Source of the DNA: a bacterium
GTDB taxonomy: Bacteria > JAJVIF01 > JAGGVT01
NCBI GenBank assembly: GCA_021157815.1
Contig: JAGGVT010000093.1
Coordinates: forward strand, 1 to 32,489
Length of the DNA: 32,489 bases
Direction of reading: 5' to 3'
The notes below the pieces were generated by a model. That model saw only the letters and a program-made list of their open reading frames with translations. It ran no database searches and was not told the DNA's origin. A program made the translations under genes and the position numbers. Below, one piece after another: positions 5,659 to 31,263 of the stretch (position 1 is the stretch's first letter; every line of letters begins with the position of its first letter).

Positions 5659-5845
5659 GGCGCTTCAATAAATAGAACGGGTTAATTGCACACCGTAAAA
5701 AAGGGGATACTTCGACAGGCTCAGCATTTACATCAGTCCACAATAGGCTTCAAACTTGACAATTTTAATGAAACTTATTCATAACCCCACTGTTTATCGT
5801 ATTTATAAACCGGTTGGAACTGCCCCCTTTTTTACTCAATCTAAA
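5659..5845. repeat. Degenerate copy of repeat family B (GGCGCTTCAATAAA end plus AAAAAGGGGACAGTCC core)
   Basis: ggcgcttcaataaat...aaaaaagggga[26-bp insert]cagtccacaataggcttcaaacttga...cccccttttttactcaatc; compare 18817-19010. Confidence 0.65.
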
Positions 5846-5917: not shown

Positions 5918-8200
5918 ATGAGAACTCTGAGAATGATACTGATTGGTATTTTGGTTTTACTGATGCTGACAGGAGCGACAGTCGCAACACAGGAACGTCC
6001 GGGCGATATCCTCGATGATGAATGGACATTGCGCGATGACATCCCGGTAACGCTCGACATCGACGGGATAGAATGGAGCGCGGCGCTCTATCAAAACAAT
6101 GAAATGCTGAGAATTGTTTTCTATCTTGAGGATGAATCCGCTAAACCTGTGAAAACAACTCTTGAATTTGATCCTGTTTATTTCCTCATGAGAGGTATGC
6201 CGGTTGTAATTGACACATTTGCGGTTGAGAAAAAAGAGATAGATTACAAGTTCATTAACGATAAAATGATTTACGAGGTTGAAGTAACCAACTATCCGAA
6301 AATCCTTGAGATGAAAGCGACATCGCGAAAGCTCGGGAATAGAGGCGAACTCACAACCGAGGACAGAATCAAACAGGCGAGGACGCTGAGGCGAATCCGT
6401 CCGCAAATCGACAGCTGGTCTAAACTCGCAAGCGGACAGATTATCGCCCAGAAAACACTCAAGCCGATTATCTGCCACGCCGGTTATGATATCAACGGCA
6501 CAAAATCAGCGGTAATCTGGGCAAACTCAAAAAAACTATCAGGCACATTCGAACTGCTGGATGCCACCCGTAACAGGCAGCACCCCGCACCGCAGCCGGT
6601 TGTCTATACCGGACAACTTAAATGTACCGGATTCCATATCTGGGGCGGAAATAATTATGTGGCCGATTTCTCCGATTTCAAAACGCCCGGCTTATACTAT
6701 CTCAGGCTGCGAGTGAACGAAACCAAAGAGGTTGTCGATTCAGAGGTTTTCCCCATCAAGAAAAATCTGTATCGCGAACTTTCAAAGAAAGCGGCGGGTT
6801 GGTATTACTACCAGCGATGCGGCATGGAGATTCCGGGATTTCACAAAGCCTGCCACACTCAGGATACGGTTATCAAACTCGACGGCACGAAAGTCGATGT
6901 TTCCGGCGGATGGCATGATGCCGGCGATTACGGCAAATGGATTGGTCCCACCACAATCAGCATTATCGCTCTGGCAAATCTACAGGATGAACTCGGCGAT
7001 GAGTTTATCGGCAACCGAACCGCCAAACCTGATGTCCTCGACGAAGCCGCATGGGGAGCGGAATATCTGTGCAAAGGATATTGGGACGGCAAGTTTCATG
7101 CCGGATTTACCGCGGATTTCGAGGATGTCTGCACCTGGCTTGGCGCTCCTGAAAAAGAGCCGCCTCGCATTGTCACGGTAGCGGAAATGATTGAGAACAA
7201 TTATTATGGCTGTTCGCGCGGACCTGGAATCAGCCACATGGGCGCGTCCCTTGCAAAAACAGGAAGGCTAATAAGGCCCTACGGCGACAAAGAACTCAGC
7301 GACCGGTGCATCTCAGTTGCAAAAGAGGTCTATGAACTTGATAAAGCTGTGGATTTGTCAAAACCGGAATACGAGAAAAAGCAAAACTCATACCTCTGGA
7401 TTCAAGCCGGACTGCTAACATCAGCAATTGATCTCTATAAAGTAACCAACGATGAAAAGTATCAAAAAGACGCAATTCTATTTGCTGAAAATCTTCTCGC
7501 GCTTCAAGACAAGGATGGCAGTTTCTTTTTCGATGAAGCAAGAACATCGGATAAATATGTCGAATGTCGATTCCACATGCTCGCGCTGTATGATTTCTAC
7601 AAACAGAATCCTGGCAGCAGCCTGAATGTAAAGATTAAAGACGCTTTCAAACAGTGGGCTGATCTCACAATGAAATTCGCAAACCTGAATAATTTCGGAT
7701 TAATTGGCGGCGTGAATAAAGACGGCAAACTGGTTAACATTAAATATCCGCAGGGCAACCGACGTATCGGCGCATTCGCATGGGGGCTGGCAACAGCGGC
7801 AATCCTGTGCGATGAACCCAAATATCTCGAAGCGGCTGAAAATCAGATTCAATGGATTACCGGATTCAACCCGACTGACATCTCCATGATGGCTGGTGTC
7901 GGATTCGGTCCCGGATGCTACCATCACCGCTACTGTTTCATGGATGGCTGCAGTGATGGCATCGTACCCGGTGGAATACTAAACGGAATCACTGAGGGAA
8001 CTGGCAAGGCTAAATATCTGGGCGATACGGATACGAAAAACATTGTAATTGCCGAAGTTCCTGTCGATTACCCGATCATTGACACCGATGTCCGCGGATG
8101 GACCTATGTCTATTCCAGCAACGAATACTGGTCGCGAAACAGCGCATGGTTCGTTCTTGCCACAACACAAATTGAAAAAGCAATGCGGAAATTGCATTAA
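5918..8200 (+). CDS. Secreted glycoside hydrolase family 9 (GH9) enzyme with CelD-type Ig-like domain and an extra N-terminal domain
   Basis: Signal peptide MRTLRMILIGILVLLMLTGATVA; DVSGGWHDAGDYGKW; GFNP..; CYHHRYC; C-terminal YSSNEYWSRNSAW (catalytic Glu context). Confidence 0.9.
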   Translation: MRTLRMILIGILVLLMLTGATVATQERPGDILDDEWTLRDDIPVTLDIDGIEWSAALYQNNEMLRIVFYLEDESAKPVKTTLEFDPVYFLMRGMPVVIDTFAVEKKEIDYKFINDKMIYEVEVTNYPKILEMKATSRKLGNRGELTTEDRIKQARTLRRIRPQIDSWSKLASGQIIAQKTLKPIICHAGYDINGTKSAVIWANSKKLSGTFELLDATRNRQHPAPQPVVYTGQLKCTGFHIWGGNNYVADFSDFKTPGLYYLRLRVNETKEVVDSEVFPIKKNLYRELSKKAAGWYYYQRCGMEIPGFHKACHTQDTVIKLDGTKVDVSGGWHDAGDYGKWIGPTTISIIALANLQDELGDEFIGNRTAKPDVLDEAAWGAEYLCKGYWDGKFHAGFTADFEDVCTWLGAPEKEPPRIVTVAEMIENNYYGCSRGPGISHMGASLAKTGRLIRPYGDKELSDRCISVAKEVYELDKAVDLSKPEYEKKQNSYLWIQAGLLTSAIDLYKVTNDEKYQKDAILFAENLLALQDKDGSFFFDEARTSDKYVECRFHMLALYDFYKQNPGSSLNVKIKDAFKQWADLTMKFANLNNFGLIGGVNKDGKLVNIKYPQGNRRIGAFAWGLATAAILCDEPKYLEAAENQIQWITGFNPTDISMMAGVGFGPGCYHHRYCFMDGCSDGIVPGGILNGITEGTGKAKYLGDTDTKNIVIAEVPVDYPIIDTDVRGWTYVYSSNEYWSRNSAWFVLATTQIEKAMRKLH

Positions 8201-8213
8201 GGAGAATAAAACC

Positions 8214-9281
8214 ATGAAATTCACAACAATCACAAAAACTCTGATGCTCACTCTTCTGCTTGTTTTATGCATTAACCAAACAGGCGCTACACAAGCATCA
8301 GCTAAACCGAAAGCCGATGAAATTCGCGGTGTCTGGATGTCCTCCTCATCGTTCGACAGCGATGCAGACAAGGGGTTGGCAGGAATTAGGGAAATGCTCG
8401 ATATGCTTGATTCAATCGGAATCAACAACCTGTACTGTTTCTCAGCTCTGAAATGCCAGCACAACAAGGATTATGATTTCCTGCAGGTGCTGATTGATGA
8501 GGCTCACCCACGAAACATGAAAGTCCATGCAATCTGTTGCCCCGACAACATGTTCCCTGAATGGAAAGAGCAACTGGACAAGCATCCCGAATGGATTGTC
8601 AAAAACATGAACGAGGATAATATCTGGCTGAATTTCCCCGCTGAGGGTGCAAAGGAACTCGCGCTGAGTTTAATCAAGGAAGCGCTGGAGTATGATATCG
8701 ACGGCATCCAACTCGATGGAATCCGCTACCAGACTCACCAGGGATACAGCTACGATGATGTTACCCTGAAGGAATTCAAGGATGAATTCGGCAAAGACCC
8801 GCTTGAACTGAGATGGCTTAACAGCGGAAGCGTTATCTGGTGCGAATGGTGCAGATGGAACGCCGACCGTGTAACAAGTTATGTTCGCGATGTCAAAGCC
8901 ACAATAATAAAGTCCGGCAAGGATATTCCTCTGTCTGTTGCGGTTTTTCCCGATCACGAATCGGCAAAACTTCTCATCGGGCAGGATTGGCAGGCGTGGG
9001 TTGATGAGGGAATCGTCGATATGATTTGCCCCATGCTGTACACGAAAAATCAAAACGTATTTAGAAAATACGCCAAAGCCGCGATTGATCTTGGAAAGGG
9101 CAAATGCATTGTTACCACCGGAATCCAAATCAGCGGGCATAGCCATAGCACACCTGATGAAGTTGTAAGGCAGGTCGCCATTTCGAGAGAGGAAAACGCG
9201 GATGGGATCGTGATTTTCTTTGCGACACAATTTACCGACGAATTTCTCAAAGCGCTAAAAGAAAGTGTTTTTAAGGATTAG
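8214..9281 (+). CDS. Secreted GHL10/DUF187-type family 10-like glycosyl hydrolase
   Basis: Signal peptide MKFTTITKTLMLTLLLVLCINQTGA; EIRGVWMSSSSF; EYDIDGIQLDGIRYQT; DICPMLYT-like segment; aagGAG at 8199-8204 before ATG 8214. Confidence 0.8.
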   Translation: MKFTTITKTLMLTLLLVLCINQTGATQASAKPKADEIRGVWMSSSSFDSDADKGLAGIREMLDMLDSIGINNLYCFSALKCQHNKDYDFLQVLIDEAHPRNMKVHAICCPDNMFPEWKEQLDKHPEWIVKNMNEDNIWLNFPAEGAKELALSLIKEALEYDIDGIQLDGIRYQTHQGYSYDDVTLKEFKDEFGKDPLELRWLNSGSVIWCEWCRWNADRVTSYVRDVKATIIKSGKDIPLSVAVFPDHESAKLLIGQDWQAWVDEGIVDMICPMLYTKNQNVFRKYAKAAIDLGKGKCIVTTGIQISGHSHSTPDEVVRQVAISREENADGIVIFFATQFTDEFLKALKESVFKD

Positions 9282-9369
9282 TGCTAATACTAATCCGTAG
9301 GGGGCGGGTTTAAAATACGCTCCTACATATTTTACAAATGCATGTGCCGGGTTCATTCAGAGATGGCAG

Positions 9370-9466
9370 ATTGTCATTCTGAACTTGATTCAGAATCTAT
9401 CTTTTTCTGGTAATTGGCAATAAGATGGATTCCGGGTCAAGCCCGGAATGACAATGAATACAATTG
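9370..9466. repeat. Two-hairpin dispersed palindromic repeat (family C, copy 2)
   Basis: gtcattctgaacttgattcagaatct...ggattccgggtcaagcccggaatgac; matches 31-122. Confidence 0.8.
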
Positions 9467-9585
9467 CGATCTTCGAGCGGCACCCGATATGGTATTAGGC
9501 TTTAGCCGATTTTTAATAACACCATGCTTTAGCATGATGCTGCTGCAAACTGAGATTATCGCAAATATAACCTGGAGAGTTTATC

Positions 9586-11178
9586 ATGAAACCAAAATTC
9601 CTCATCGTATTAGCCCTATTCTGCTGCCTCGCGATTACCAGCAGTATTTCAGCTGAGGAAAAAATTGATTGGCAGCCCATCACAATAAAAGTCAACGATG
9701 TCGCAGGGCAATACAACTGGAGCATCAACTGGGATATCTCATTCCACTACAAAAAATTCGATAAAATCCTCCCGGACGGCAACGGCGTTTTCATTAACAG
9801 GCAGATTGACAAAAATTCCTATCTGCCATCCAAACCGCTCATAACCAGAAGCTCAAAAGGCATAGATGAAATCCCCAACGGCGCGAATGTCTCAATGGCA
9901 TCCATGCCGGAAAGCGAGAGAATCCCGGGCAGCGGCGGTGAGATTTACAATGAAAACGACGGCAAAACCGCTCATCAAAGAGACTGGGACGCTCTGGTCA
10001 GCACCAGAGAGATGATCTTCAGGGAAAATGGTGTAACTGATGAAACGCCACTCATGGAAAAAGTCAAACTTATCGCCGACTGGGCGCATAATACCAACAA
10101 AGAAGGACCTGTCTATGAATCCAAACACCCTGTCGATCTCATTTTCTATTCATCATTCTGTGTCGGACGAGCTAATGGATTTGTCGGAATGATGCACACA
10201 ATGGGACTCCCCGCCCGCACTGTCAACATGAACGGGCATTCGGTCGCGGAAGTATTAATAGATGGCAAGTGGCATTACGTGGAGAATTTCACCAGGAAAT
10301 CCGGGAAAAAAGAGGCAGCTACACTTATGTCATGCTCCCTGATGGAATTCTACGGCAATCCGTTTAAATATAAGGAATACACATCGGAATCGCATCTGGC
10401 ATCGCCATATTTCAAATCAAAGGATTTACACAACGGCAGGGGAAACTGGCAGCTTGGCGCATGGTGGCACTGGCATTTCATCCAGTGCGGAAAAGGCGAT
10501 GACATCATGATGCGCAACACGATGAAAAACGGCAGTGGAATCGCCGTAACTCTAAACGGCGCAAACAGCGCCGCGCTTTATCCGAATGCTGAAAACTATT
10601 ACTATAAAGTTATCAAAGGCAATCCGCCTGTCATGACAAACTACCAGAAAGAAACCTGGTATCGAGCCGGGCATAGAGTCTTGCAGGGTGATTGGATTCG
10701 CAAACGCTTCTACATTGGAAATCTCGACGATAAAGAAAATCCGGTTGAGAAGATAACATCGCGATTGTACCTCATGGGCGGCGACACTCAGTCATTCGCA
10801 ATCCCGCCGGTTATTTTCCCGGACGATGCTGACTGGACTCTGAAAATCAACTCGAAAGAATACAAGCTCAAGGATTGCACCAACGACTGGCAACTGGTGA
10901 AGGAATTCGAGCCAACCGCGATGATGCCTGTTATCTACTTTGAATTCCAAATCAACAAAGAGGATTTGAAACAAAACGATTACAATATATTTGAATTTGG
11001 AAGCATTCCATGCGAAAAATACAAAGAGCAACACATTCATGTCATGATATATCCTGAGCCGATGCTGCCATATTTCAATCCATACAAACGGTTCGACAAC
11101 ACACGAAAACAAACGGAATGGCGCATTATCACCGACCAGAAATGGGACTGGTTACAGATAGTTGAATACGCCTGGTAA
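9586..11178 (+). CDS. Secreted transglutaminase-like (papain-fold) domain protein
   Basis: Signal peptide MKPKFLIVLALFCCLAITSSISA; SSFCVGRANGFVGMMHTMGLPARTVNMNGHSVAEVLIDGKWHYVEN matches the transglutaminase-core Cys...GLPAR...His...GKWHYV layout. Confidence 0.75.
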   Translation: MKPKFLIVLALFCCLAITSSISAEEKIDWQPITIKVNDVAGQYNWSINWDISFHYKKFDKILPDGNGVFINRQIDKNSYLPSKPLITRSSKGIDEIPNGANVSMASMPESERIPGSGGEIYNENDGKTAHQRDWDALVSTREMIFRENGVTDETPLMEKVKLIADWAHNTNKEGPVYESKHPVDLIFYSSFCVGRANGFVGMMHTMGLPARTVNMNGHSVAEVLIDGKWHYVENFTRKSGKKEAATLMSCSLMEFYGNPFKYKEYTSESHLASPYFKSKDLHNGRGNWQLGAWWHWHFIQCGKGDDIMMRNTMKNGSGIAVTLNGANSAALYPNAENYYYKVIKGNPPVMTNYQKETWYRAGHRVLQGDWIRKRFYIGNLDDKENPVEKITSRLYLMGGDTQSFAIPPVIFPDDADWTLKINSKEYKLKDCTNDWQLVKEFEPTAMMPVIYFEFQINKEDLKQNDYNIFEFGSIPCEKYKEQHIHVMIYPEPMLPYFNPYKRFDNTRKQTEWRIITDQKWDWLQIVEYAW

Positions 11179-11359
11179 ATGGAAATTCCCAAATTAACAT
11201 TGATTAACCAACACGATATCTGCATAATGCTATCTGAAATCAGTACCATGCTTTAGCATCATGTTTTAACACCATGCTTTAGCGTGGTGCTTTTGAAAAC
11301 ATGATGCTAAAGGAAAAAAATTGAATTGGTCAATGAAATTATTATTCGTTAATCAATCC

Positions 11360-11384
11360 GTCATTCCCGCGAAAGCGGGAATCC
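11360..11384. repeat. Intact palindromic repeat GTCATTCCCGCGAAAGCGGGAATCC
   Basis: Direct reading; same sequence at 30704-30728. Confidence 0.85.
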
Positions 11385-11440
11385 ATTGAAAAATGAGAAA
11401 TGCCAACTCTCCATAAAAGATAATTGGATTCCCGCTTTCG

Positions 11441-11570
11441 GGGCTGTTGAAAAAGCTCTGAATGTAGGGGGTAGGTCTCTGTGCCTACCCTAAATATTGG
11501 TATAAATACAGGGCAACCACGGAGAGTTGCCCCTACGGTCTGGGATATAATGGGCTTTTTCAACAGCCCC
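11441..11570. repeat. MITE-like element A inserted inside a palindromic repeat
   Basis: TIR GGGCTGTTGAAAAAGC (11441-11456) / GCTTTTTCAACAGCCC (11554-11569), flanked by ggattcccgctttc and tttcgcgggaatgac (TTTC duplication). Confidence 0.85.
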
Positions 11571-11678
11571 TTTCGCGGGAATGACGTTTTTTTCGTCACA
11601 CTCTTTGGCGTAGTACTTTATGAAAGCATACTGCTTTTGAAATATTTTATCTGTAACACTCATTTCAGGAGATTCAAA

Positions 11679-13937
11679 ATGAAAGCTCTCAGGTTTGTAA
11701 CAATTACAGCATTATTATTCGCCCTTCTGACAGGCGCTGGACTCGCACAGGACACAACATTCAGCGACTTTTTCGACGAAGATGAAGGCTGGATACTGCG
11801 CGACGATATCCCCGTTTCACTTGGAATAAAAGGGACATCATGGTCAGCCGCGGCATACCAGAACGAAGTGAAACTAAGAATAATCTTCCAAATGGACGCT
11901 CCAGCCACCAAAACGATAAAAACACAACTCAAATTCGACCCGATTTATTTCCTCGTTAAGGGAATGCCTATTTTGATTGACACATCCACCGGAAAGAAAA
12001 AGGAAGTCGATTATGAATACGCGCAGGAGACCATGACGTTGGATGTTGAGGTTGCCAGTTATCCGAAAATACTGGAATTTCATGTAACATCGCGAAAACT
12101 AAGAAATCGCGGCGAACTCTCAATGAATGACAAAATGAAACAGGCGCGAACGATTCGACGAATCCGCCAACAACTCGACACCTGGTCCGAACTCGCCGAT
12201 GGCCAGATAATCGCACAGAAAACTCTCAAGCCGATAATCTGTCACGCCGGATATGATGTCAATAGTGTTAAAACCGCTGTAGTTTGGGCTAACAACTTAA
12301 AGCTAACAGGTCATTTTGAACTGATCGATTGCCTTCACAACAGGCAGCATCCTGCTCCACAACCTGTTGTTTACACGGGAAAGCTAAAGGAAACCGGATT
12401 TCATATCTGGGGCGGCAATAACTACATCGCGGATTTCTCCGATTTCAAAACGCCCGGGTTATATCGGGTAAGGCTGATTGTCGATGAAACAAAAGAGGTT
12501 GTCGATTCGCACACCTTCCCAATCAGGAATGACCACTATCTCGAACTAACGAAAAAAGCCGCGCGATGGTTCCGCTATCAACGTTGCGGAACTGGCGTTC
12601 CCGAATTTCACAAAGCCTGCCACACCGGGGATACGATTGTTAAACTGGATGGCACCCGAGTCGATGTCTCCGGCGGATGGCACGATGCCGGCGATTACGG
12701 CAAATGGATCTGGGGCGGAACAATGGGAATAAACGCACTCACAACTTTCCAGGATGAATTCGACGACATTCTCGATGAGCAACTTGACGGTATGCCCCGG
12801 TTCATCAACGAAGCCGCATGGGAAGCGAATTACTTCTGCAAGTGTTACTGGGATGGCGAGTTTCATGCCTCATTTACACCTGATTTCGAGGACGTCTGCA
12901 CATGGCTGGCAACTCCTGAAAATGAAGCGCCGCGAGTGGTTTATGAATCGGACTGTGTTAAATACGACTACGGAATCACAAAAGAAGCCGCAATCTGCAC
13001 AACAGGCGCGGTTCTCGCAAGAATGGGCAGGCAGCTAATGCCGTACAATAAGAATCTTGCCGATAAATGCATCGAAATCGCGATGGATACATACGAGCGT
13101 TGCAGCAAAATGCTTGCAGACAATCCCAACATCTATTACATTCAATCCGGACTTCTAATCAACAATTTGGAATTTTACGAAATTACCGGCGATGAGAAAT
13201 ATCTCACAGGTGCAAAAGAGAGAGTCAAAGCGATTCTCGATCTTCAGCTTGATGATGGCAGTTTCTACACTGATGCGTCAAAAGAGAAAACAACATTGCG
13301 ACCCGGATATCATTTGCCTGCTCTGTATGAATTTGCCAAACGATACCCGAAAAGTGAACTTACACCCGGAATTGCGAATGCTTTTAGGAAATGGGCGGAT
13401 AACATGATGCAGTACGCCTACCTCTCACCGTTCGGCCAGGTCGGAGGGAAAATGGATGACGGCGCGATTAGAAACATAATGCCCGACACAAACAACGGAA
13501 GATTCGGCGAAACTGCATTCGGTCTTGCAACAGCAGGCCGCTTATGCAAAGAGATTAAATATCTCGAAGTCGCGGAATACCAACTACAATGGATTCTTGG
13601 ATTCAATCCAGCCGATGTCTCCATGATGGCCGATGTCGGTCAAGGTCCCAACTGTTACCACACACGCTATTGCTTTATGAAAGGCTGCGAGGATGGAGTT
13701 GTTCCCGGCGGAATAACTCTCGGAATCTATTCAGGCAAAGGCGAACTGGTGGAACTCGGCGATCTGGATACCAAACAGTGGGTAGTCGCGGATGTCCCTA
13801 TTGACTACCCTATAATCGACACCGATGTCTGGGGATGGACATACGCATACCGAACCAGCGAATACGCCCTCGCAAAAGACGCATCATTCATAAGAGCGGC
13901 ATGCCAGATAATCAAGGGCTATGAAGAACTGAAATAG
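11679..13937 (+). CDS. Secreted GH9 enzyme, paralogue of 5918-8200
   Basis: Signal peptide MKALRFVTITALLFALLTGAGLA; RVDVSGGWHDAGDYGKW; CYHTRYCFMKGCEDGVVPGG; start at 11679, since the longer ORF from 11481 reads through a repeat. Confidence 0.9.
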   Translation: MKALRFVTITALLFALLTGAGLAQDTTFSDFFDEDEGWILRDDIPVSLGIKGTSWSAAAYQNEVKLRIIFQMDAPATKTIKTQLKFDPIYFLVKGMPILIDTSTGKKKEVDYEYAQETMTLDVEVASYPKILEFHVTSRKLRNRGELSMNDKMKQARTIRRIRQQLDTWSELADGQIIAQKTLKPIICHAGYDVNSVKTAVVWANNLKLTGHFELIDCLHNRQHPAPQPVVYTGKLKETGFHIWGGNNYIADFSDFKTPGLYRVRLIVDETKEVVDSHTFPIRNDHYLELTKKAARWFRYQRCGTGVPEFHKACHTGDTIVKLDGTRVDVSGGWHDAGDYGKWIWGGTMGINALTTFQDEFDDILDEQLDGMPRFINEAAWEANYFCKCYWDGEFHASFTPDFEDVCTWLATPENEAPRVVYESDCVKYDYGITKEAAICTTGAVLARMGRQLMPYNKNLADKCIEIAMDTYERCSKMLADNPNIYYIQSGLLINNLEFYEITGDEKYLTGAKERVKAILDLQLDDGSFYTDASKEKTTLRPGYHLPALYEFAKRYPKSELTPGIANAFRKWADNMMQYAYLSPFGQVGGKMDDGAIRNIMPDTNNGRFGETAFGLATAGRLCKEIKYLEVAEYQLQWILGFNPADVSMMADVGQGPNCYHTRYCFMKGCEDGVVPGGITLGIYSGKGELVELGDLDTKQWVVADVPIDYPIIDTDVWGWTYAYRTSEYALAKDASFIRAACQIIKGYEELK

Positions 13938-13944
13938 GAAAAGA

Positions 13945-14070
13945 AAGTTAGCAGGTTAGTAAGTTAGTAGGTTAGTAAGTTAGCAAGTTAGCAGGTTAGC
14001 AAGTTAGCAGGTTAGCAAGTTAGCAAGTTAGTAAGTTAGCAAGTTAGCAGGTTAGTAAGTTAGTAAGTTT
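13945..14070 (+). repeat. 8-bp tandem minisatellite A(A/G)GTTAG(C/T), 15 full units
   Basis: Units parse without interruption: aagttagc aggttagt aagttagt aggttagt aagttagc aagttagc aggttagc ... Confidence 0.95.
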
Positions 14071-14080
14071 AAAAACACTC

Positions 14081-14156
14081 CCCGGGAGCTTCGGCACCCT
14101 TGCCGGAAAACAGGGGGCTTCAGCCCCTTTACGGTTAGGGTGCCGAATCTCCCGGG
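14081..14156. repeat. Large hairpin (20-bp stem, 1 mismatch) with an inner hairpin
   Basis: cccgggagcttcggcaccct (14081-14100) / agggtgccgaatctcccggg (14137-14156), inner ggggcttcagcccc. Confidence 0.8.
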
Positions 14157-14250
14157 CGGGAAAAACCGTAGCCCGGTCATGCCGTCCCGAACAAAAGCAA
14201 CAATTACCTATAAGGTAAATCAGGCATGCCGGGGAAATTAAGGTGAACTC

Positions 14251-14778
14251 ATGATACCCGACATCAGAAAACCATACGGCGACAAAATAATCCGCAAGCT
14301 AAGCGATATCAAATCGCTGTTCGCCGACCAAAAAGCAGTCGAGGAAATCCTCGCAAAAGATGACCCCGTAATCTATGAAGTTTATGCACTCCCAGTACCA
14401 TCCGATGGCGATAATCTTGTCATAGGCACAACTATTCTCTTCCCCGGCAGAGTCGGCAATGAGTTTTATTTCACAAAAGGGCATTTCCATAACGATCCCG
14501 ATGCCGCCGAATCAATCATGGGACTCGAGGGGAAAGGCCTTGCGCTAATTCAAGACAGAAACGGCAAATTCGAATCACATGAATTGACTCCCTTTAGCCA
14601 TGTATATTCACCACCGGGATTCGGGCACAGAGTAGTGAACGTTTCAGATGAAAATCTCGTCTTCCTGTCAATCTGCAGGGCGGATGTAGGCCACGATTAC
14701 GAAACAATCATGGCGGACAATTTTGCTATGAAAGTTGTAGCAACAGATAAAAACCTGTATAATTACGAGATAATTTAA
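14251..14778 (+). CDS. pgiA: Cupin-type glucose-6-phosphate isomerase (cPGI)
   Basis: GTTILFPGRVGNEFYFTKGHFHNDPDAAESIMGLEGKG...YSPPGFGHRVVN...ADVGHDY; cupin HxH..E..H metal ligands present. Confidence 0.85.
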   Translation: MIPDIRKPYGDKIIRKLSDIKSLFADQKAVEEILAKDDPVIYEVYALPVPSDGDNLVIGTTILFPGRVGNEFYFTKGHFHNDPDAAESIMGLEGKGLALIQDRNGKFESHELTPFSHVYSPPGFGHRVVNVSDENLVFLSICRADVGHDYETIMADNFAMKVVATDKNLYNYEII

Positions 14779-14856
14779 GATGTATTGCAATTGATAAAAA
14801 ATCGTTAATCCTGATAAATTCGTTGGCTTTCGGGTCACCATAAAAAAGGACTTGTG

Positions 14857-15972
14857 ATGCAGTACAAAGCATTTACCAGAATACTGGCAATCGGGATTAT
14901 ACTCCTGATTTGCTTTCACCCCGCCCAGACAACGGCACAAGAAGAAACTACAAATATAAGGCAATCTGTAATTTCCGCTCGCCAGCATCATTACATTCCC
15001 TCCAGAGAAGCAAGGGCGATATGGGTATCAACCAGCCAATTCTCAAAAGAGAAAGAAAAAGCGCAAATTGAGATGCAAGAGCTTTTCATTAAATATGCGC
15101 AGATCGGAATCACTGACCTCTTCGCTTTTTCGGTGTTGAAATGGCAGCACAAAATGGACTGGGATTTCCTGGATGTCATGCTCAAAGAGGCTCATGCGAG
15201 GAATATCAAAGTCCATCCCTGCATTTGCCCAAGCCACATATATCCCGGATGGGAAAAAACAGTCAAGGAGCATCCCGAATGGCTGATGAAAACCATAAAG
15301 GAAATAAGCCCAAAACTGAATTTAGCCCTTAAGGAAGTACGCGATTTCGTTATCGCTGAAATAGTAACTGCATTGGAATATGACATTGACGGTATCCATC
15401 TGGACGGTATCCGCTTCCAGACCAGCCAGGGATTCAGCTATGATGACGCCACCATTAACGCTTTCAAAAAAGAGTACGGCGTAACACCTCTCGAGCTGAG
15501 ATGGCATAATTGCGGAAGCACCGAATGGTGCGAATGGCTTAGATGGAACGGGAATCATGTAACCACTCTTGTCAGAGGGATTAAGGATTCAATCATTGAG
15601 TCAGGAAAGGATATTCCCCTCTCAGCCGCTGTTTTCCCCGACCACGAATCGGCAAAACTCCTCATCGGTCAGGACTGGAAGGGCTGGGTCGATGAGGGCA
15701 TCATCGATATCATCTGCCCGATGATTTACACAAGCAACCAGGACGTTTTCAGAAAATACACAAAACGCGCTGTTGAGGTCGCTAAAGGAAAATGCCTTGT
15801 TTATCCCGGGATAGCAGTCAGCACATCACATAACAAGAATACTCCTGAAGACGTTGAGGAACAGATAATCATCTCAAGAGAGGAAAACGCTGATGGCGTT
15901 GTTTTCTTCTCCGGCTCAAGCTTCAGTGATTCATTTTTAAATAAACTTAAATCGTATGTATTCAAAAAATAA
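14857..15972 (+). CDS. GHL10/DUF187-type glycosyl hydrolase, paralogue of 8214-9281
   Basis: Shared EYDIDGIxLDGIRxQT, WCEWxRWN, PLSxAVFPDHESAKLLIGQDW, DEGIxDxICPMxYT; GTG at 14854 is an alternative start. Confidence 0.82.
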   Translation: MQYKAFTRILAIGIILLICFHPAQTTAQEETTNIRQSVISARQHHYIPSREARAIWVSTSQFSKEKEKAQIEMQELFIKYAQIGITDLFAFSVLKWQHKMDWDFLDVMLKEAHARNIKVHPCICPSHIYPGWEKTVKEHPEWLMKTIKEISPKLNLALKEVRDFVIAEIVTALEYDIDGIHLDGIRFQTSQGFSYDDATINAFKKEYGVTPLELRWHNCGSTEWCEWLRWNGNHVTTLVRGIKDSIIESGKDIPLSAAVFPDHESAKLLIGQDWKGWVDEGIIDIICPMIYTSNQDVFRKYTKRAVEVAKGKCLVYPGIAVSTSHNKNTPEDVEEQIIISREENADGVVFFSGSSFSDSFLNKLKSYVFKK

Positions 15973-15991
15973 AAGCGAGGGTAAACGTTAA

Positions 15992-17497
15992 ATGCTGCAT
16001 GGAATAGACTTATTCATTGTTATTGCCTTCATTGTGGGCATCTTCGCTGTCGGCGTATATTTCCGTAAATATGTCCGCACATCGGAGGATTTCTTCCTTG
16101 CCGGCAGAAATCTGACGTGGTGGATAATCGGAATGTCGATTATCGGCACGAATATTGGCTCATACGACTATGTCGGAGGCGCCGGCGCCGCGTACGGTGT
16201 CGGTATCGCGCAAGCCAACTACGAGTGGATTGGCGCGATTCCAGCGATGGTTATTTCAGCGCTGATATTCGTTCCATACTACTGGAAAGCCGGTGTTTAC
16301 ACTGTCCCGGAATATCTGGGCAAACGTTACAGCCAGCCGGTCAGGACAATCGAGGCTCTTTTATGGGGTTGTTTTCTCATCGCATGCCTGTCAATCTTCT
16401 TCTGGGCAAGCGGAGTCATGATTGAAACCTACCTTGGCTGGAGTATCTGGACTGGAATTATAGTTACAGCTGTTGTCGTTGGATTCTACACAGTCAGCGG
16501 AGGCTTGACAGCGGTCGCCATGACCGATGTCATCCAATTAGTAATAATGCTGGTTGGCGGAATCGCGATTGCCATTATCGGATTCGATTTAGTGGATGGC
16601 TGGGGAGGCCTGATTGCTAAAATCCAGCCTGCACATCCCGACCACTTCAAATTGTTTTTACCATTAGACAACCCGGACTACCCGTGGCTGGGGATGATAT
16701 TCGGACTTGCGCTTGTCCTGTCGCCTGCATGGTGGTGTTGCCATCAGGCGATTATCCAGAGAACTCTCGGCGCGAAATCCGAATGGGACGCCAAAGCTGG
16801 TATGTTAAGCGCGGCTTTCCTTAAAACGCTGGTTCCCCTTCTGTATGTTCTCCCCGGTCTGTTCGTTCTCGCGCTTTGCACAACCGGACTTGATAATAAG
16901 GATCAGGCGCTGCCTTGGGCAGTCAAGAACCTGCTGCCAGTCGGACTGTCAGGCTTGATATTCGCCGCGTTTATTGCCGCCGTCTATTCAAGCATCGACT
17001 CGACACTCAACTCGGCGGTTACAATCTGGTCGAGAGACATATACCAGAACTTCTTTAAAAAGGACGCATCCGACAAGCACTATCTGAATTTCGGCAGATG
17101 GCTTACGGTTATTTTCATTCTTATCGCCGTTCCGCTTGCGCCGATAACAGAAAACTTTGGAATTTACAAGGCGATGCAGGTGGCGCTATCATATTTCCAG
17201 GGCGCGACTCTGGCAACTATCCTTCTCGGCATTATGTGGGCAAGATCAACTCCCTGGGGCGGACTCGCGGGATTAGTGCTCGGTGTGGTTTGTTCCATTT
17301 TACTAACAGCGACAGGAATGAATTTCCTCTATGTCGCATGGTGGTCTTTCGTTGTGGCGATTATCTTTAATGTATTGGTTAGCCTGTTCACAAAGCCGAA
17401 GCCAATCGAGGAACTCACCGGACTGGTTTACGGACTTGTCATGAAAAACGAAAATATCCAGAACAATCTCTCAGATAGAGCAGAGGGAGGCGCGTAA
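15992..17497 (+). CDS. Sodium:solute symporter (SSS family), likely sugar uptake
   Basis: About 13 hydrophobic helices; YFRKYVRTSEDFFLAGRNLTWWIIGMSIIGTNIG, VYTVPEYLGKRY, AVYSSIDSTLNSAVTIWSRDIYQ. Confidence 0.9.
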   Translation: MLHGIDLFIVIAFIVGIFAVGVYFRKYVRTSEDFFLAGRNLTWWIIGMSIIGTNIGSYDYVGGAGAAYGVGIAQANYEWIGAIPAMVISALIFVPYYWKAGVYTVPEYLGKRYSQPVRTIEALLWGCFLIACLSIFFWASGVMIETYLGWSIWTGIIVTAVVVGFYTVSGGLTAVAMTDVIQLVIMLVGGIAIAIIGFDLVDGWGGLIAKIQPAHPDHFKLFLPLDNPDYPWLGMIFGLALVLSPAWWCCHQAIIQRTLGAKSEWDAKAGMLSAAFLKTLVPLLYVLPGLFVLALCTTGLDNKDQALPWAVKNLLPVGLSGLIFAAFIAAVYSSIDSTLNSAVTIWSRDIYQNFFKKDASDKHYLNFGRWLTVIFILIAVPLAPITENFGIYKAMQVALSYFQGATLATILLGIMWARSTPWGGLAGLVLGVVCSILLTATGMNFLYVAWWSFVVAIIFNVLVSLFTKPKPIEELTGLVYGLVMKNENIQNNLSDRAEGGA

Positions 17498-17498
17498 A

Positions 17499-17702
17499 AT
17501 GATAGAAAGTTTAAAATCAATACCAATCGGCACGGTTAAAATAATCGGAGCAATCTTCTTTTTAATCGTGATGTTTTGGGCGGTAACTCGTCCAAGAGCT
17601 TATATCTTCAGGGGAGCGCCTGATCAAAGCGCATGGCGCGACCTAAGAATATGGGCCGTTATCGTGCTTTTAGTCCAGATATACCTTTATATGAAGTTTT
17701 AA
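17499..17702 (+). CDS. Small membrane protein (67 aa) immediately downstream of the symporter
   Basis: One base between symporter TAA and ATG (taaaatg); two hydrophobic segments. Confidence 0.6.
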   Translation: MIESLKSIPIGTVKIIGAIFFLIVMFWAVTRPRAYIFRGAPDQSAWRDLRIWAVIVLLVQIYLYMKF

Positions 17703-17738
17703 TCATGCCAATTTCGATATTTAAAATGAGGAAATGCC

Positions 17739-17960
17739 ATGGAAAATAAAGATGAACAAAAATCTGTCGCGAATCCCCTTCAAGTGATGGGCATATTCTG
17801 GGTCGTCTTTGGGTTAATCGTGGCGATATCAGCATATGCGCCGGAAGAAGCTCTGGGCAAACTCGTAAACCTGCTCTCAGGTCTTATCCTGATAATTGTC
17901 GGCGTGATTGCTCTTTTGAAAGGGCGCAGGAAAAAAGAGATTCCCGGCGGGTCAGAATAA
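17739..17960 (+). CDS. Small two-helix membrane protein (73 aa)
   Basis: MGIFWVVFGLIVAISAYAPEEALGKLVNLLSGLILIIVGVIALLKGRRKKE; upstream aaaatgaggaaatgccATG. Confidence 0.6.
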   Translation: MENKDEQKSVANPLQVMGIFWVVFGLIVAISAYAPEEALGKLVNLLSGLILIIVGVIALLKGRRKKEIPGGSE

Positions 17961-17962
17961 TT

Positions 17963-18499
17963 GTGAGATTCGTTACGCCATCTGTTGACAAAGATACGGC
18001 TTTCAAGAATCTCACAAGAAAGCGAAAACGGCTGTTTGCTGCCGCATCTAAACAAGCGCCGTTGAAAATTGAACTAATCAATTTTCCGCATTACATATTC
18101 ACACTGACAATCTCAGTTGAATCGGGCAATAAGGAAATAGATGTTGCGGCCGACGGTATCGTCGGCCTTTTTTCTTTTTTGAAAATTGAAGAACTTTCAC
18201 TTGATGACAAATCCGACTTTCCAACTTTCGCATGGAAACTGTCAACCGAACAGGCTAAGGAAAAAGTTGTCGCTGAGTACAGATGGATATTAATCAAACA
18301 CGGAATCCACAACAGGGAACTGCCTAAAATAATCGACATCAGAGACAGCAAACTATTCTATCCGTTCTGGGTCGGTTACTATCCAAGAGGCGACGGCCTC
18401 GATTTCAACGCCATCGACGCCATATCAGCCGCTCCCATCGGAATAAAAATGCGCCGCTCGTTTTTAGTAGCTTTCGCGCAGAAAAAAACGTTTGCATAG
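17963..18499 (+). CDS. Uncharacterised protein
   Basis: 178-aa ORF starting GTG directly after 17960 stop; conserved-looking KLFYPFWVGYYPRGDGLDFNAIDAIS segment. Confidence 0.5.
   Translation: MRFVTPSVDKDTAFKNLTRKRKRLFAAASKQAPLKIELINFPHYIFTLTISVESGNKEIDVAADGIVGLFSFLKIEELSLDDKSDFPTFAWKLSTEQAKEKVVAEYRWILIKHGIHNRELPKIIDIRDSKLFYPFWVGYYPRGDGLDFNAIDAISAAPIGIKMRRSFLVAFAQKKTFA
18148..18180 (+). terminator. Intrinsic-terminator-like hairpin plus T-tract inside ORF 17963-18499
   Basis: ggccgac ggtatc gtcggcc followed by ttttttctttttt. Confidence 0.55.
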
Positions 18500-18502
18500 A
18501 TT

Positions 18503-18578
18503 GTAGCCCGGGAATCCATTTCCCGAGAAAAAACGACGCTAATCTACGCAAACCCCGGGAAATGGATTCCCGGGCTAC
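18503..18578. repeat. Perfect 23-bp inverted repeat (30-nt loop) downstream of the symporter operon
   Basis: gtagcccgggaatccatttcccg (18503-18525) / cgggaaatggattcccgggctac (18556-18578); half copy at 32196-32218. Confidence 0.9.
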
Positions 18579-18816
18579 TTGCGCACTGATTTAAAGCAGG
18601 CGGAATATGAACCTGATCCAATATTGAACAGGTTTACAGGCTTCTTTGTTAAGAGGTATCAGCGAGAAGGGCAGAATACGATACAATGATATGATTATAA
18701 TCAACACCAGTAGGTCGACTTTCGACATTTATTTACTTTCTGTATTTTGTGGCTCTGGGCAATATGGTACGTTCATTGGAAAAGAAGCGATTTTAAATTC
18801 GGCTGTGTTTTTATTT

Positions 18817-19010
18817 GGCGCTTCAATAAATTGTGTGGGTAATTTGCACCCCCGTAAAAAAAGGGGACAGTCCACATGAGGCATCAAACTTGATGATTTC
18901 AATATATCATACTGCAACCCCTCATTTATACTGTATTTATTCACTTGCTTGGGACAGTCCCCTTTTTTTACTCAATCAAAACTCAACCCACACGATTTAT
19001 TGAAGAGCCT
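18817..19010 (+). repeat. Repeat family B element (TIR TTGGCGCTTCAATAAATTGTGTGGGT)
   Basis: Ends ggcgcttcaataaattgtgtgggt / acccacacgatttattgaagagcc; inner aaaaaaaggggacagtcc / gggacagtcccctttttt. Confidence 0.85.
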
Positions 19011-20608: not shown

Positions 20609-22117
20609 CTATTCATCCGGCGTCATATTTGGCTTTATTACTTCACCATTCGCCAACGAAAAACCATATCTCGTAAGCAATACGCCCTCATGACGTAACA
20701 GATAAACAACCGCTTTACGGCAGTTTGCAACAGCTTGTATTTCAGATATCTTGCTTGCAAGAAGGTCGCGTTGTGCCTGCGCGACAAGCAGCGATGTCGA
20801 TTTCCCTACACGATACTTCTCCGTTTCCGCCCGCAGTTTCGCCTCCTGCAGCTTGCGGGATGCCGCTGTTGCGACAATCTGTTCGGTGGTGCGGTTAAGT
20901 TCAATCCACGCGACACTGACATCCATTTTGGCAAGCTGCTCAAGGTTGTTCATCGCCTCTCTGGATTGCTCCTGGCTTATTAAAGACTGCCTGTGGCGTT
21001 CCCGTGAATCCCTGTTGCCAATATCCTGCGTATATTGAATTCCGACCTGCATATCATTGCCGCTGTTGCCTATATCCCCTATTGACTGGTTGAACGAATC
21101 AGCATAACCGGTCATTCCAAGCGTAACAAAAAATTTCATATTGGGAAGCAATCCGTTTTTTGTTGTTAGCACATCAAGTTCATTTCGCTGTAACTGCAAT
21201 TCAGCCTGATTCAAATCGGGCCTGTTGTGCAGCGCAATATCAATATGCGAATCCATTTCACCAACATCAAATTCCGGAACAATAAACTCATTCTTAATAA
21301 CAATACTCTGCTTAATAAAATCAACATTCGGCGGATTCAACAGGCGCAATAATTTAATTCGTGTTTTTTCAATGTTGCTGCGGGCGTTTATTAAAGCTTC
21401 ATTACGGGATGCCACCTCCGCCTCTGATGCTATCAGCTCTATCTCGGCAAGTTTGCCGACATCGATCATAGTCCGGGTTTCATCAAGCTGTCGCTGGGCA
21501 AGATTCAGGGATTCCACATAAATTGTAAGCTGCCTGACAGCAAGGGAATAATCCCAACATGCTGTTTCAACCTGGCTGATTAGCGTTTCAGCATAAGCCT
21601 GTAGTTCATAAATCGAGGATTTCGTACTCAACTGCGCCTTGCGAAGCCCCGCCAGATTTACTGAATAACCCGCACCCTTAAAGATTGGCTGAGACAATGT
21701 CAGGCTAATACGCGCGGAATAGTTGTTATCACTGGCTACTCCCCCACCTCTGTTTCCTGAAAGCCCAAGACTGATATCCCCACCGGATAATAGCAGTTTT
21801 GAAATTCCAAAGCTAAAATCAGATCGAGTGCTTTTCGACCCGGAATCATCCTTGTCCTGCGATGTTGACACCGAACTCGACAATCCAACATCAAATGCTG
21901 ACCGTTCCATCCGTTCCGAACTCTCACGCAATTCCGGTTTAAGGCGTTCTATCTTAAACGCGCTGTTGTTCTCAAGAGCCATCAGGATTGCTTCTTCAAC
22001 GGTCACTTCCAATGGCTTGTTTTTGGTATCAGCATAAACCGGATTCGAGAGCAATAGAATCAGGCAGCAAAGAAGGGAAATGCTGATCGATGGAAAATTA
22101 TTTTTTAGTAAAAACAT
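20609..22117 (-). CDS. TolC-family outer-membrane efflux protein
   Basis: Signal peptide; VTVEEAILMALENNSAFKIERLKPELRESSERMERSAFDVGLSSSV; NRPDLNQAELQLQRNELDVLTTKNGLLPNMKF. Confidence 0.88.
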   Translation of the reverse strand: MFLLKNNFPSISISLLCCLILLLSNPVYADTKNKPLEVTVEEAILMALENNSAFKIERLKPELRESSERMERSAFDVGLSSSVSTSQDKDDSGSKSTRSDFSFGISKLLLSGGDISLGLSGNRGGGVASDNNYSARISLTLSQPIFKGAGYSVNLAGLRKAQLSTKSSIYELQAYAETLISQVETACWDYSLAVRQLTIYVESLNLAQRQLDETRTMIDVGKLAEIELIASEAEVASRNEALINARSNIEKTRIKLLRLLNPPNVDFIKQSIVIKNEFIVPEFDVGEMDSHIDIALHNRPDLNQAELQLQRNELDVLTTKNGLLPNMKFFVTLGMTGYADSFNQSIGDIGNSGNDMQVGIQYTQDIGNRDSRERHRQSLISQEQSREAMNNLEQLAKMDVSVAWIELNRTTEQIVATAASRKLQEAKLRAETEKYRVGKSTSLLVAQAQRDLLASKISEIQAVANCRKAVVYLLRHEGVLLTRYGFSLANGEVIKPNMTPDE

Positions 22118-22164
22118 CTTTTTGTCCTTTCTGTATTTATTTGCACAAGTAGGGGCATTGCTTG

Positions 22165-22355
22165 GAATCTGTCTCAGAATTCCATATTTCTATCATGTCT
22201 GCATTTTCTGTCATTCTTAACGAAGTGAAGAATCTATTCGCGATAACGTGAATATTTCTCATCAGATATAATCGCCGGCACAGTAGCATATAGATTCTTC
22301 GCTATGCCCAGAATGACATTAAATCATGCTTATAATGGAGTTCTGAGACATTTTC
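22165..22355. repeat. Inverted-repeat element between tolC-like and macB-like genes
   Basis: tgtctcagaattccat (22170-22185) / atggagttctgagaca (22335-22350), 1 mismatch; inner gtcattcttaacgaagtgaagaatct ... agattcttcgctatgcccagaatgac. Confidence 0.75.
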
Positions 22356-22366
22356 CCTGCTGTGCC

Positions 22367-23575
22367 CTATTCATAATAAAGAGATTCAACCGGATCAAGC
22401 AACGCCGCGCGGCGTGCAGGATAGTAACCAAAAAAGATTCCAACCGCGACAGAGAAAGACAAAGCCAGAATAACTCCTGACGGCTCGACAACGGTCTGGA
22501 ACTGGGTTGCGTTGCCGATGATTCTCGATGCTTCAAACCCAGCTGCCACTCCAATTATTCCGCCGATACCGCTTATGATAATTGCTTCAATAAGAAACTG
22601 GCGAAGTATGTCCCTGTCTTTCGCGCCTATTGCTTTACGTATTCCGATTTCCCTTGTCCTTTCTGTAACCGTAACCAACATGATATTCATTATTCCGATA
22701 CCGCCAACGAGCAGCGATATGCTTGCGATACTTCCCAGCAGTATTGCAAATGTACGGTTGGTTTCACTTACCATCTCGATAAAATCCGCCTGATTGCGAA
22801 TATAGAAATCATCCTCCTGTCCGGGAGCAATTTTGTGTCGTTTCTTCAACACAACCGCAGCCGCTGTTTCAACCTCCATAAGCGCGTCGCTATTATTTAC
22901 CTGAATATTAATTTCACGCAATGAATCAAAACCGAAAACGATTTTCATTGCGGTTGTATATGGAATTAACACCTGATTATCAGGGTTATACCAGCCCATG
23001 TCGCCTTTTGATTTCAAAACGCCGACAACACGGAAATTAATTCCCTTGAGTTTTATTTTCTCGCCAATTGGATTATCAGGCAGTTCAAGATCTTCAACGG
23101 TTTGGGGTCCCAGAACAGCTACTCGCGCAGTGCTGTTTACTTCGGACTCGGAGAAAAATCTTCCCTTTTCAAGATGGTAATCTCTAATCGTTTGATAAGT
23201 AATTGCAGTTCCGGTTACATTTACACGCGAATTTTTATTGAAATATTTCACCTGCGCATTGCTTGAAACCACAGGCGCGACCTGCTCTATGGCATTAACC
23301 TCATTAAGCAGCGCTTTGGCATCATCAACAGTCAAATTTTGGCGTGTTCCGCTCATAACACCATGCGAACCCAGCTGCCCGGGCCTTACCACAAGCAGAT
23401 TGGTTCCCATCGACGTTATTCTGTCCATCATTTCGCGCTTTGCGCCTGTCGCAATCGCCAGCATCGATATTACCGCGCCTACACCGATAATGATTCCCAG
23501 CATCGCAAGAAATGACCTGAGTTTGTTGGCATATAATCCTTTAAGCGCCATTTTAATTGTTGTCATCAGGATCAT
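22367..23575 (-). CDS. MacB-type ABC transporter permease
   Basis: KMALKGLYANKLRSFLAMLGIIIGVGAVISMLAIATGAKREMMDRI; LLVGGIGIMNIMLVTVTERTREIGIRKAIGAKDRDI. Confidence 0.92.
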   Translation of the reverse strand: MILMTTIKMALKGLYANKLRSFLAMLGIIIGVGAVISMLAIATGAKREMMDRITSMGTNLLVVRPGQLGSHGVMSGTRQNLTVDDAKALLNEVNAIEQVAPVVSSNAQVKYFNKNSRVNVTGTAITYQTIRDYHLEKGRFFSESEVNSTARVAVLGPQTVEDLELPDNPIGEKIKLKGINFRVVGVLKSKGDMGWYNPDNQVLIPYTTAMKIVFGFDSLREINIQVNNSDALMEVETAAAVVLKKRHKIAPGQEDDFYIRNQADFIEMVSETNRTFAILLGSIASISLLVGGIGIMNIMLVTVTERTREIGIRKAIGAKDRDILRQFLIEAIIISGIGGIIGVAAGFEASRIIGNATQFQTVVEPSGVILALSFSVAVGIFFGYYPARRAALLDPVESLYYE

Positions 23576-24261
23576 TCTCGCGATACCCTCCCATTTCGTT
23601 TATCGCTTATAATTTTGCCATCCATCATGCGGATAACACGCTTGCATCGCGCAGCGACATCATCATCATGAGTTACAATCAGAACAGTTAATCCTTCATT
23701 ATTTAGTTTGGCAAAAAGCTCCAGAATCTCCCCGCTTGTTTTACTGTCCAGATTTCCGGTTGGTTCATCAGCAAGCAGTATGGATGGCTTCGTGACAAGC
23801 GCCCGCGCTATCGAAACACGCTGGCTTTCACCGCCTGAAAGCTGATTCGGCTCATGATTCATCCTTTCAAAAAGCCTCACGCTCTTAAGAGATTCAACAG
23901 CACGAGATTTGGCATCATCAGCGCCGGCGTACAACAACGGCAGTTCAACATTTTCCAGCGATGACATACGGGATATTAAGTTAAACGACTGGAAGACAAA
24001 TCCTATGCGACGATTTCTTGTCTCCGCCAATTGATCCTTGGATAGATTGGACACATCAACATCAGTGAGGAAATATTTCCCCGAATCAGGTTTCCCAAGG
24101 CATCCGATTATGTTCAGCAGTGTAGTTTTGCCACTTCCGGATGTTCCAGTTACAGCGACCATATCCCCCTCGTCAACATTGAAACTAACACCATCCAACG
24201 CTTTTACAACGCTGTCGCCCACTTTGAAAATCTTGACAATGTTCTCGGTTTTAATGATCAT
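23572..24261 (-). CDS. MacB/LolD-type ABC transporter ATP-binding protein
   Basis: Walker A GTSGSGKTTLLN, signature LSGGESQRVSIARAL, Walker B ILLADEPTGNLD; overlaps neighbouring genes. Confidence 0.95.
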   Translation of the reverse strand: MIIKTENIVKIFKVGDSVVKALDGVSFNVDEGDMVAVTGTSGSGKTTLLNIIGCLGKPDSGKYFLTDVDVSNLSKDQLAETRNRRIGFVFQSFNLISRMSSLENVELPLLYAGADDAKSRAVESLKSVRLFERMNHEPNQLSGGESQRVSIARALVTKPSILLADEPTGNLDSKTSGEILELFAKLNNEGLTVLIVTHDDDVAARCKRVIRMMDGKIISDKRNGRVSRE

Positions 24262-30784: not shown

Positions 30785-30998
30785 TTGGTTCTTCAATAAA
30801 TCGTGTGGGGTGAGTTTAGATTGAGTAAAAAATGGGGAATGTCCCTACAAAGTGAATAAACACAGTATAAATAAGGAATTACAGCATAGTATATTGATAA
30901 CATTAGATTTGAAGCCTCGTGTGGACGTACCCCGTTATCGGGGAATGCCCCTTTTTTTACGGGGTGCAAATAACCCACACAGTTTATTGAAGCGCCAA
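30785..30998 (-). repeat. Repeat family B element (inverted copy)
   Basis: ttggttcttcaataaatcgtgtgggg ... aacccacacagtttattgaagcgccaa. Confidence 0.8.
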
Positions 30999-31113
30999 AA
31001 ATTTCAATCAACTCAATTTTGTTTTTTGTGAAGCCGTTCGCTAAACCATTTTTATGCTCGTACACCCGTATTATCAGATTTGAACCAGAAGAAAAAATGG
31101 ATTCCCGCTTTAG

Positions 31114-31246
31114 CGGCTGTTGAAAAAGGGCTGAATGTAGGGGGTAGGTCTCTGTGCCTACCCTATATATATTGGCATAAATACAGGGCAACCACGGAGA
31201 GTTGCCCCTACGGTCTGGGATATAACAGGCTTTTTCAACAGCCCCT
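31114..31246 (+). repeat. MITE-like element A inside a palindromic repeat (copy 3)
   Basis: gattcccgcttta[gcggctgttgaaaaagggc...ggctttttcaacagcccc]tttcgcgggaatgac; cargo near-identical to 11441-11570. Confidence 0.85.
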
Positions 31247-31263
31247 TTCGCGGGAATGACGAG

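Follow-up and report, generated by a model that had tools for sequence, protein, structure and literature searches.

Ten adjacent genes on contig JAGGVT010000093.1 (assembly GCA_021157815.1), at positions 5918-18499 of the 32,489-nucleotide stretch analysed here (the window), raise the question of whether they form a polysaccharide utilization system and, if so, for what kind of glycan. A preliminary description had listed them, all on the plus strand, as GH9a, GHL10a, a transglutaminase-like protein (TGase), GH9b, a cupin phosphoglucose isomerase (cPGI), GHL10b, an SSS-family sodium symporter, two small membrane proteins (TM1 and TM2) and a protein termed ORF178 here. Inspection of the open reading frames (ORFs) together with Pfam searches confirmed this order and the presence of two GH9 and two GHL10 genes. 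Likewise, no SusC, SusD or TonB family member was found among the window proteins scanned. The set is real and conserved, and literature searches (with subscription papers outside their reach) turned up no description of this combination, which had not been recognized in the preliminary description either. We lean towards the view that the locus is one part of a SusC/SusD-free, horizontally spread catabolic system for a uronic-acid-containing extracellular heteropolysaccharide.

GH9a (5918-8200, +) comprises a Sec-type signal, an N-terminal module of about 155 amino acids without family assignment, an immunoglobulin (Ig)-like CelD_N domain and the GH9 catalytic domain. GH9b (11679-13937, +), whose ATG at 11679 was preferred over the GTG at 11481, also carries CelD_N. 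Both exceed the Pfam curated cut-off for PF00759 (27.7 bits) by far, with 149 bits for GH9a and 126 bits for GH9b, and they are 55% identical over 761 columns. Catalytic residues are present in either protein: Asp334 and Asp337 of the DAGD motif and Glu736 within SNEYWSRN in GH9a, and Asp336, Asp339 and Glu728, the latter within TSEYALAK, in GH9b. Hydrolysis of a beta-linked glycan is thus predicted from family membership, and a PDB sequence search returned mostly endoglucanases and cellobiohydrolases as the best solved relatives. The combination of CelD_N with a catalytic domain carrying the Asp and Glu motifs is shared with the CelD/CbhA-type enzymes of C. thermocellum, which have an N-terminal Ig domain; unlike these, however, the GH9 proteins of the locus form a separate clade, possess the additional N-terminal module and occur as two types distinguished by SNEYW and TSEYA.

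When the Ig/active-site segment (118 amino acids) was used to scan 85,462 species genomes, seven loci were recovered at 73-77% identity, and the next relatives dropped to 46% over the same segment. A tree that included 73 more distantly related GH9 proteins as the outgroup placed the subfamily in a single clade with a support of 1.0, set off by a branch 1.5 substitutions per site long. The seven seed carriers belong to Bacteroidota (three), Planctomycetota, Eisenbacteria, Acidobacteriota and Aminicenantes, the last two falling in one phylum according to the taxonomy of the genome tool. The genome of the window appears to represent a fifth phylum because only three of the compared genomes match its class and none beyond these matches its phylum; neither GH9 nor GHL10 was found in those three (0/3). 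Carriers are rare elsewhere as well, amounting, seeds included, to 1 of 397 genomes in Bacteroidota, 1 of 393 in Planctomycetota and 3 of 396 in Acidobacteriota, and some 1,180 genomes of these three carrier phyla yielded a single carrier (G1014) beyond the seeds. The carrier contigs range from 31% to 69% GC, and the Bacteroidota GH9 copies adjoin genes for PorV or for proteins with a type IX secretion system (T9SS) tail, so that binning error does not explain the spread over phyla. The patchy distribution rather suggests that the subfamily was disseminated by horizontal transfer. No known plasmid or phage vehicle emerged, since a plasmid search gave, among the matches listed, only GH9 at about 25% identity, and a search of a viral collection gave none.

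All seven seed genomes harbour GH9 in two copies; a third match in G062 is a C-terminal fragment at a contig end. In a tree of the catalytic domains the GH9b type forms a clade (bootstrap 100) that extends over five phyla, with members from the window and from Acidobacteriota, Planctomycetota, Eisenbacteria, Aminicenantes and Bacteroidota. The acid motif separates this type (TSEYA) from the GH9a type (SNEYW), which constitutes a grade without clade support and has orthologues in Planctomycetota, Eisenbacteria and Acidobacteriota. In G058 and G064, which are two of the three Bacteroidota genomes, each copy either belongs to the GH9a type or breaks off ahead of the motif. The duplication is ancient, and the two catalytic types travel together. 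The earlier proposal that an ancestral GH9-GHL10 pair had duplicated does not hold for GH9 as a local event, because a recent tandem duplication of such a unit is rejected by the catalytic-domain tree; the GHL10 genes may or may not have duplicated along with GH9.

The N-terminal modules have a different history. They cluster mostly per genome or per group of related genomes, and within a genome the two modules are 60% (window), 64% (Eisenbacteria) or 99% (planctomycete) identical, while the window modules and those of the Eisenbacteria and planctomycete genomes share only about 45%. The C-terminal catalytic parts behave conversely, with 67-74% identity between orthologues and 58-65% between paralogues of the same genome. 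The planctomycete pair (L122:339-5031) is an extreme instance in which N-terminal module and Ig domain are 99-100% identical and the catalytic domains 70%; its near-identical N-termini could stem from a recent conversion event, or the value could be inflated because a repeat was assembled. The natural reading is that the N-terminal modules of a genome are kept similar by gene conversion or by replacement of the domain, and both GH9 enzymes therefore probably share one binding partner.

Conservation extends to the neighbouring genes. The order GH9a-SSS-TM1-TM2-ORF178 recurs in the planctomycete (L122) and Eisenbacteria (L114) loci; in the window the symporter gene directly follows GHL10b, not GH9a, and the conserved block proper is therefore SSS-TM1-TM2-ORF178 with GH9 upstream. 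GH9 lies next to GHL10 in both G062 and G064, and TGase next to GHL10 in G060. None of the 73 distant GH9 loci examined as a control carries homologues of SSS, TGase, TM1, TM2 or ORF178, and one has a weak GHL10. Hence the neighbourhood comparison that had been proposed for this locus found parts of the set conserved together across phyla. In Bacteroidota and Aminicenantes carriers the GH9/GHL10 part alone was seen. In the Bacteroidota locus L098 (G064:C45) a BD-FAE-like esterase gene and a GH26 gene follow the GH9-GHL10 pair.

Relatives also reveal what the window lacks. In the planctomycete (L122), ORF178 is followed by genes for a second symporter (SSS2), for DegT and for a CBM9/heparinase II/III-type protein, after which a second lyase gene begins; contig L094 opens with the rest of this second lyase and carries GHL10 and TGase too, so that the two contigs are probably adjacent. 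In locus L115 GH9a adjoins two amidohydrolase genes together with SSS2, DegT, one heparinase II/III gene, a further two amidohydrolase genes and one for a TIM barrel protein. The genome of the window encodes homologues of these proteins on contigs C56 and C36 (L153 and L154, G000:C56:46000-74941; L155, G000:C36:15000-28000), namely lyases (62% and 57% identity), SSS2 and DegT (65-66%), amidohydrolases (57-73%) and the TIM barrel protein (64%), along with MR_MLE, FAA-hydrolase and cyclase genes. Lyases and one amidohydrolase are present in the Eisenbacteria genome G059. Much of the extended set is thus common to four genomes of four phyla. The nearest solved relatives of two of the lyases are heparinase III proteins, and for this reason we propose that the substrate contains uronic acid. 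The MR_MLE, FAA-hydrolase and amidohydrolase_2 genes resemble those of a non-phosphorylative pathway for sugar acids (L-fuconate/L-rhamnonate type), although none reached an NCBIfam equivalog cut-off. Heparinase-type lyases (PL12/PL21) were reported in another glycan-degrading uncultured bacterium, a member of the Latescibacteria (PMC4454575); here, by contrast, such lyases belong to a conserved set that also includes the GH9 pair, GHL10, SSS, DegT and amidohydrolases. With the SusC/SusD-type polysaccharide utilization loci of Bacteroidota the set shares the grouping of secreted glycan-cutting enzymes with a transporter and a composition that varies as a mosaic from genome to genome. These loci differ, however, from the window, which has no SusC/SusD, TonB or sensor-regulator genes and features an SGLT-like symporter, and from the present set in that it spans several phyla.

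The symporter (15992-17497, +) had been proposed as the uptake component, and it is indeed a core member of the syntenic block. It scores above the cut-offs of PF00474 (SSF; 248 bits) and TIGR00813 (291 bits), its nearest solved relatives are vSGLT (E 2e-72) and SGLT1/2, and sodium-coupled sugar import is predicted from the similarity to vSGLT. It is 74-76% identical to the syntenic orthologues in L122 and L114; a relative at 48-50% lies between GH92 and GH2 genes. Unlike vSGLT and SGLT, which belong to the same family, it has TM1, TM2 and ORF178 as partners. TM1 (17499-17702, +; 67 amino acids), encoded directly after the symporter, TM2 (17739-17960, +; 73 amino acids) and ORF178 (17963-18499, +; 178 amino acids), the final gene product of the block, are 55-61%, 54-56% and 36-39% identical, respectively, to the proteins at the same positions in L114 and L122. 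TM1 is probably a small accessory subunit of the symporter. Neither TM1 nor ORF178 matched any Pfam or NCBIfam model, and TM2 gave only sub-cut-off DUF matches.

GHL10a (8214-9281, +; 355 amino acids) and GHL10b (14857-15972, +; 371 amino acids; from a likely ATG start that differs from that of the longest ORF) are predicted glycosyl-hydrolase-like TIM barrel proteins, GHL10a apparently secreted. Both score above the PF02638 cut-off, with 95.8 bits (on the longer ORF of GHL10a, whose likely start is at 8214) and 78.7 bits, and they share 54% identity over 322 columns. GHL10b is the type nearest to copies elsewhere, with relatives at 50-57% in four of the seven seed genomes; in a tree both group, poorly resolved, with the single planctomycete copy. 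The sole PDB sequence match of GHL10a is Cwp19 of Clostridioides difficile, a lytic transglycosylase (PMC6016235), and the AlphaFold2 model of GHL10b (predicted local distance difference test score, pLDDT, 79) is a TIM barrel whose nearest folds are Cwp19 (best, template modelling score about 0.7) and PgaB. Although Pfam family and barrel are common to Cwp19 and the locus proteins, identity is only about 20%, cell-wall-binding repeats are missing, and the position of Asp196, proposed as a key residue of Cwp19 (PMC5765458), is occupied by Gly or Tyr, never by an acidic residue, in all eight GHL10 proteins compared.

The role of the TGase (9586-11178, +; 530 amino acids, predicted to be secreted) is the weakest part of the model because its structure could not be modelled (pLDDT 33, unusable for fold) and the only relative found has a broken frame. 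PF01841 (Transglut_core) is matched with 26.6 bits against a cut-off of 23, a candidate Cys192-His218-Glu233 set is kept in both copies aligned, and no sequence relative was found in the PDB. A homologue with 61-67% identity adjoins GHL10 in a planctomycete metagenome-assembled genome (MAG). This copy (L094:3228-4411, -) is devoid of the segment corresponding to residues 260-393 of the window protein and shifts its reading frame at that point, as would be expected of either a decaying gene or an assembly error. No TGase was found in 57 further relatives or in 47 genomes of the Eisenbacteria phylum. The cPGI (14251-14778, +; PF06560, 85.5 bits; E about 1e-41 to a cPGI in the PDB) had been counted as a member of the system, but it has no homologue in any related locus and is probably an incidental cytosolic enzyme.

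Ordinary use of a beta-glucan (cellulose, mixed-linkage or xyloglucan-type), in which the GH9 proteins act as endoglucanases, glucose or cellobiose enters through the symporter and the remaining genes hitch-hike, is the likeliest alternative, and beta-glucan had been suggested before. The CelD_N-GH9 architecture, the solved relatives, the SGLT-like symporter and a cPGI that would accept glucose-6-phosphate fit this model. We nevertheless regard it as rather unlikely: the GH9 subfamily sits on a long branch far from known cellulases, no other cellulase genes are found at the locus, and GHL10 and TGase are left unexplained. Moreover, genes for lyases, SSS2, DegT and amidohydrolases accompany the GH9 genes of relatives. 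Since lyases and sugar-acid-type enzymes are encoded beside GH9 there and have homologues in the window's genome, we consider a uronic-acid glycan more likely than a plain beta-glucan. Somewhat less probable still is degradation of peptidoglycan from the cell envelope or from prey, in which GHL10 would work like Cwp19 as a lytic transglycosylase and the TGase-fold protein would hydrolyse peptide cross-links. The relationship to Cwp19 in sequence and fold and the retained Cys-His-Glu set would agree with it, but the replacement of Asp196, the absence of cell-wall-binding modules, the fact that GH9 is not a murein-hydrolase family and the rare, patchy occurrence of the gene set do not. Use of a chitosan-like amino-sugar polymer is improbable. 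It would make GH9a and GH9b exo-beta-glucosaminidases akin to GH9 enzymes of Vibrio and Photobacterium, and the sequence matches include 6gdt, 5dgq and 3h7l, presumably exo-glucosaminidases, while PgaB, a fold neighbour of GHL10, acts on poly-GlcNAc. These three structures score below the endoglucanases, however, no chitinase, deacetylase or GH20 gene was seen near the locus, and the partners are of the heparinase II/III type.

It is very improbable that the genes are coincidental neighbours or an artefact of metagenome binning. The relatives are mostly short MAG contigs, and some share the GH9 pair only; yet housekeeping genes lie on both sides of the block in the window contig, dispersed repeats tie contigs C169, C56 and C36 to one genome, and the Bacteroidota context, the GC range and the cross-phylum synteny also argue against this reading. 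The shortness of these contigs also weighs against the uronic-acid heteropolysaccharide system favoured here, as do several other points. This GH9 subfamily has no member with a known activity. The lyase module of the window's genome resides on contigs other than that of the GH9 block, and its link to GH9 therefore depends on the relatives and the shared repeats. Around the GH9 genes of Bacteroidota and Aminicenantes no such lyase was found, and the GH9-GHL10 part may therefore serve a different glycan there. The stretches read yielded neither a sulfatase nor an unsaturated-uronyl hydrolase, and the TGase occurs, frame-broken, in only one relative.

Signal-like N termini and the carbohydrate-active folds lead us to infer that the enzymes work outside the cytoplasm. 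In the system as we propose it, two exported GH9 enzymes with complementary, anciently split specificities and an interchangeable N-terminal module would cut the backbone, the GHL10 enzymes a second linkage, and the transglutaminase-fold protein would take off a part joined by an amide or peptide bond. The uronic-acid linkages would be left to heparinase II/III-type lyases whose genes lie elsewhere in the genome. The symporter, probably with TM1 and TM2 as subunits, would import sugars with sodium, and the remaining products would be handled by SSS2, DegT, the amidohydrolase and the sugar-acid enzymes. The locus, described earlier as a possible utilization system, accordingly stands as a co-inherited glycan-degradation set and as only part of that system. 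More tentatively, it is tempting to speculate about a horizontally spread multi-phylum system of some 20 genes at its fullest, devoted to one glycan class with amide-linked substituents that need the TGase-fold enzyme. The GH9 pair at its centre would have catalytic halves that remain separate from phylum to phylum and N-terminal modules that are time and again homogenized per genome, as if both enzymes had to dock on one surface or substrate.

The block is flanked by a minus-strand NAD kinase gene and an SPFH/band-7 gene. Because YchF, NAD kinase, EF-G and RNase PH genes are located on the same contig, the window is chromosomal; the assembly comprises 3.2 Mb (91% complete), and the rest of it contains no further GH9 or GHL10. 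A MacAB-like efflux set (outer membrane efflux protein, MacB permease, ABC ATPase and HlyD-type adaptor) occupies 20609-25595 (-). Families of palindromic intergenic repeats resembling miniature inverted-repeat transposable elements are found at 18815-19010, 5659-5845, 2287-2398 and 30787-30999; at 11340-11600 and 31095-31261; and at 18503-18578. As such repeats are dispersed over the genome (C169, C56 and C36), those flanking the block were rejected as transposon ends. A short array with units about 25 bases apart (L160:1401-1721; G000:C56) resembles part of a window intergenic repeat. No Rfam families or tRNA genes were found in the window, and promoter and terminator scans exceeded shuffled sequences by only about one standard deviation.

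If the proposed system is right, a single rare gene set serves one particular, as yet unnamed glycan in unrelated bacteria, most of them uncultured, and the twin GH9 enzymes, GHL10, lyases and symporter would be the enzyme set with which to identify it. GHL10 enzymes would gain a catabolic context apart from peptidoglycan, and the GH9 pair would be a clear case of distinct catalytic domains whose N-terminal modules are homogenized within genomes.

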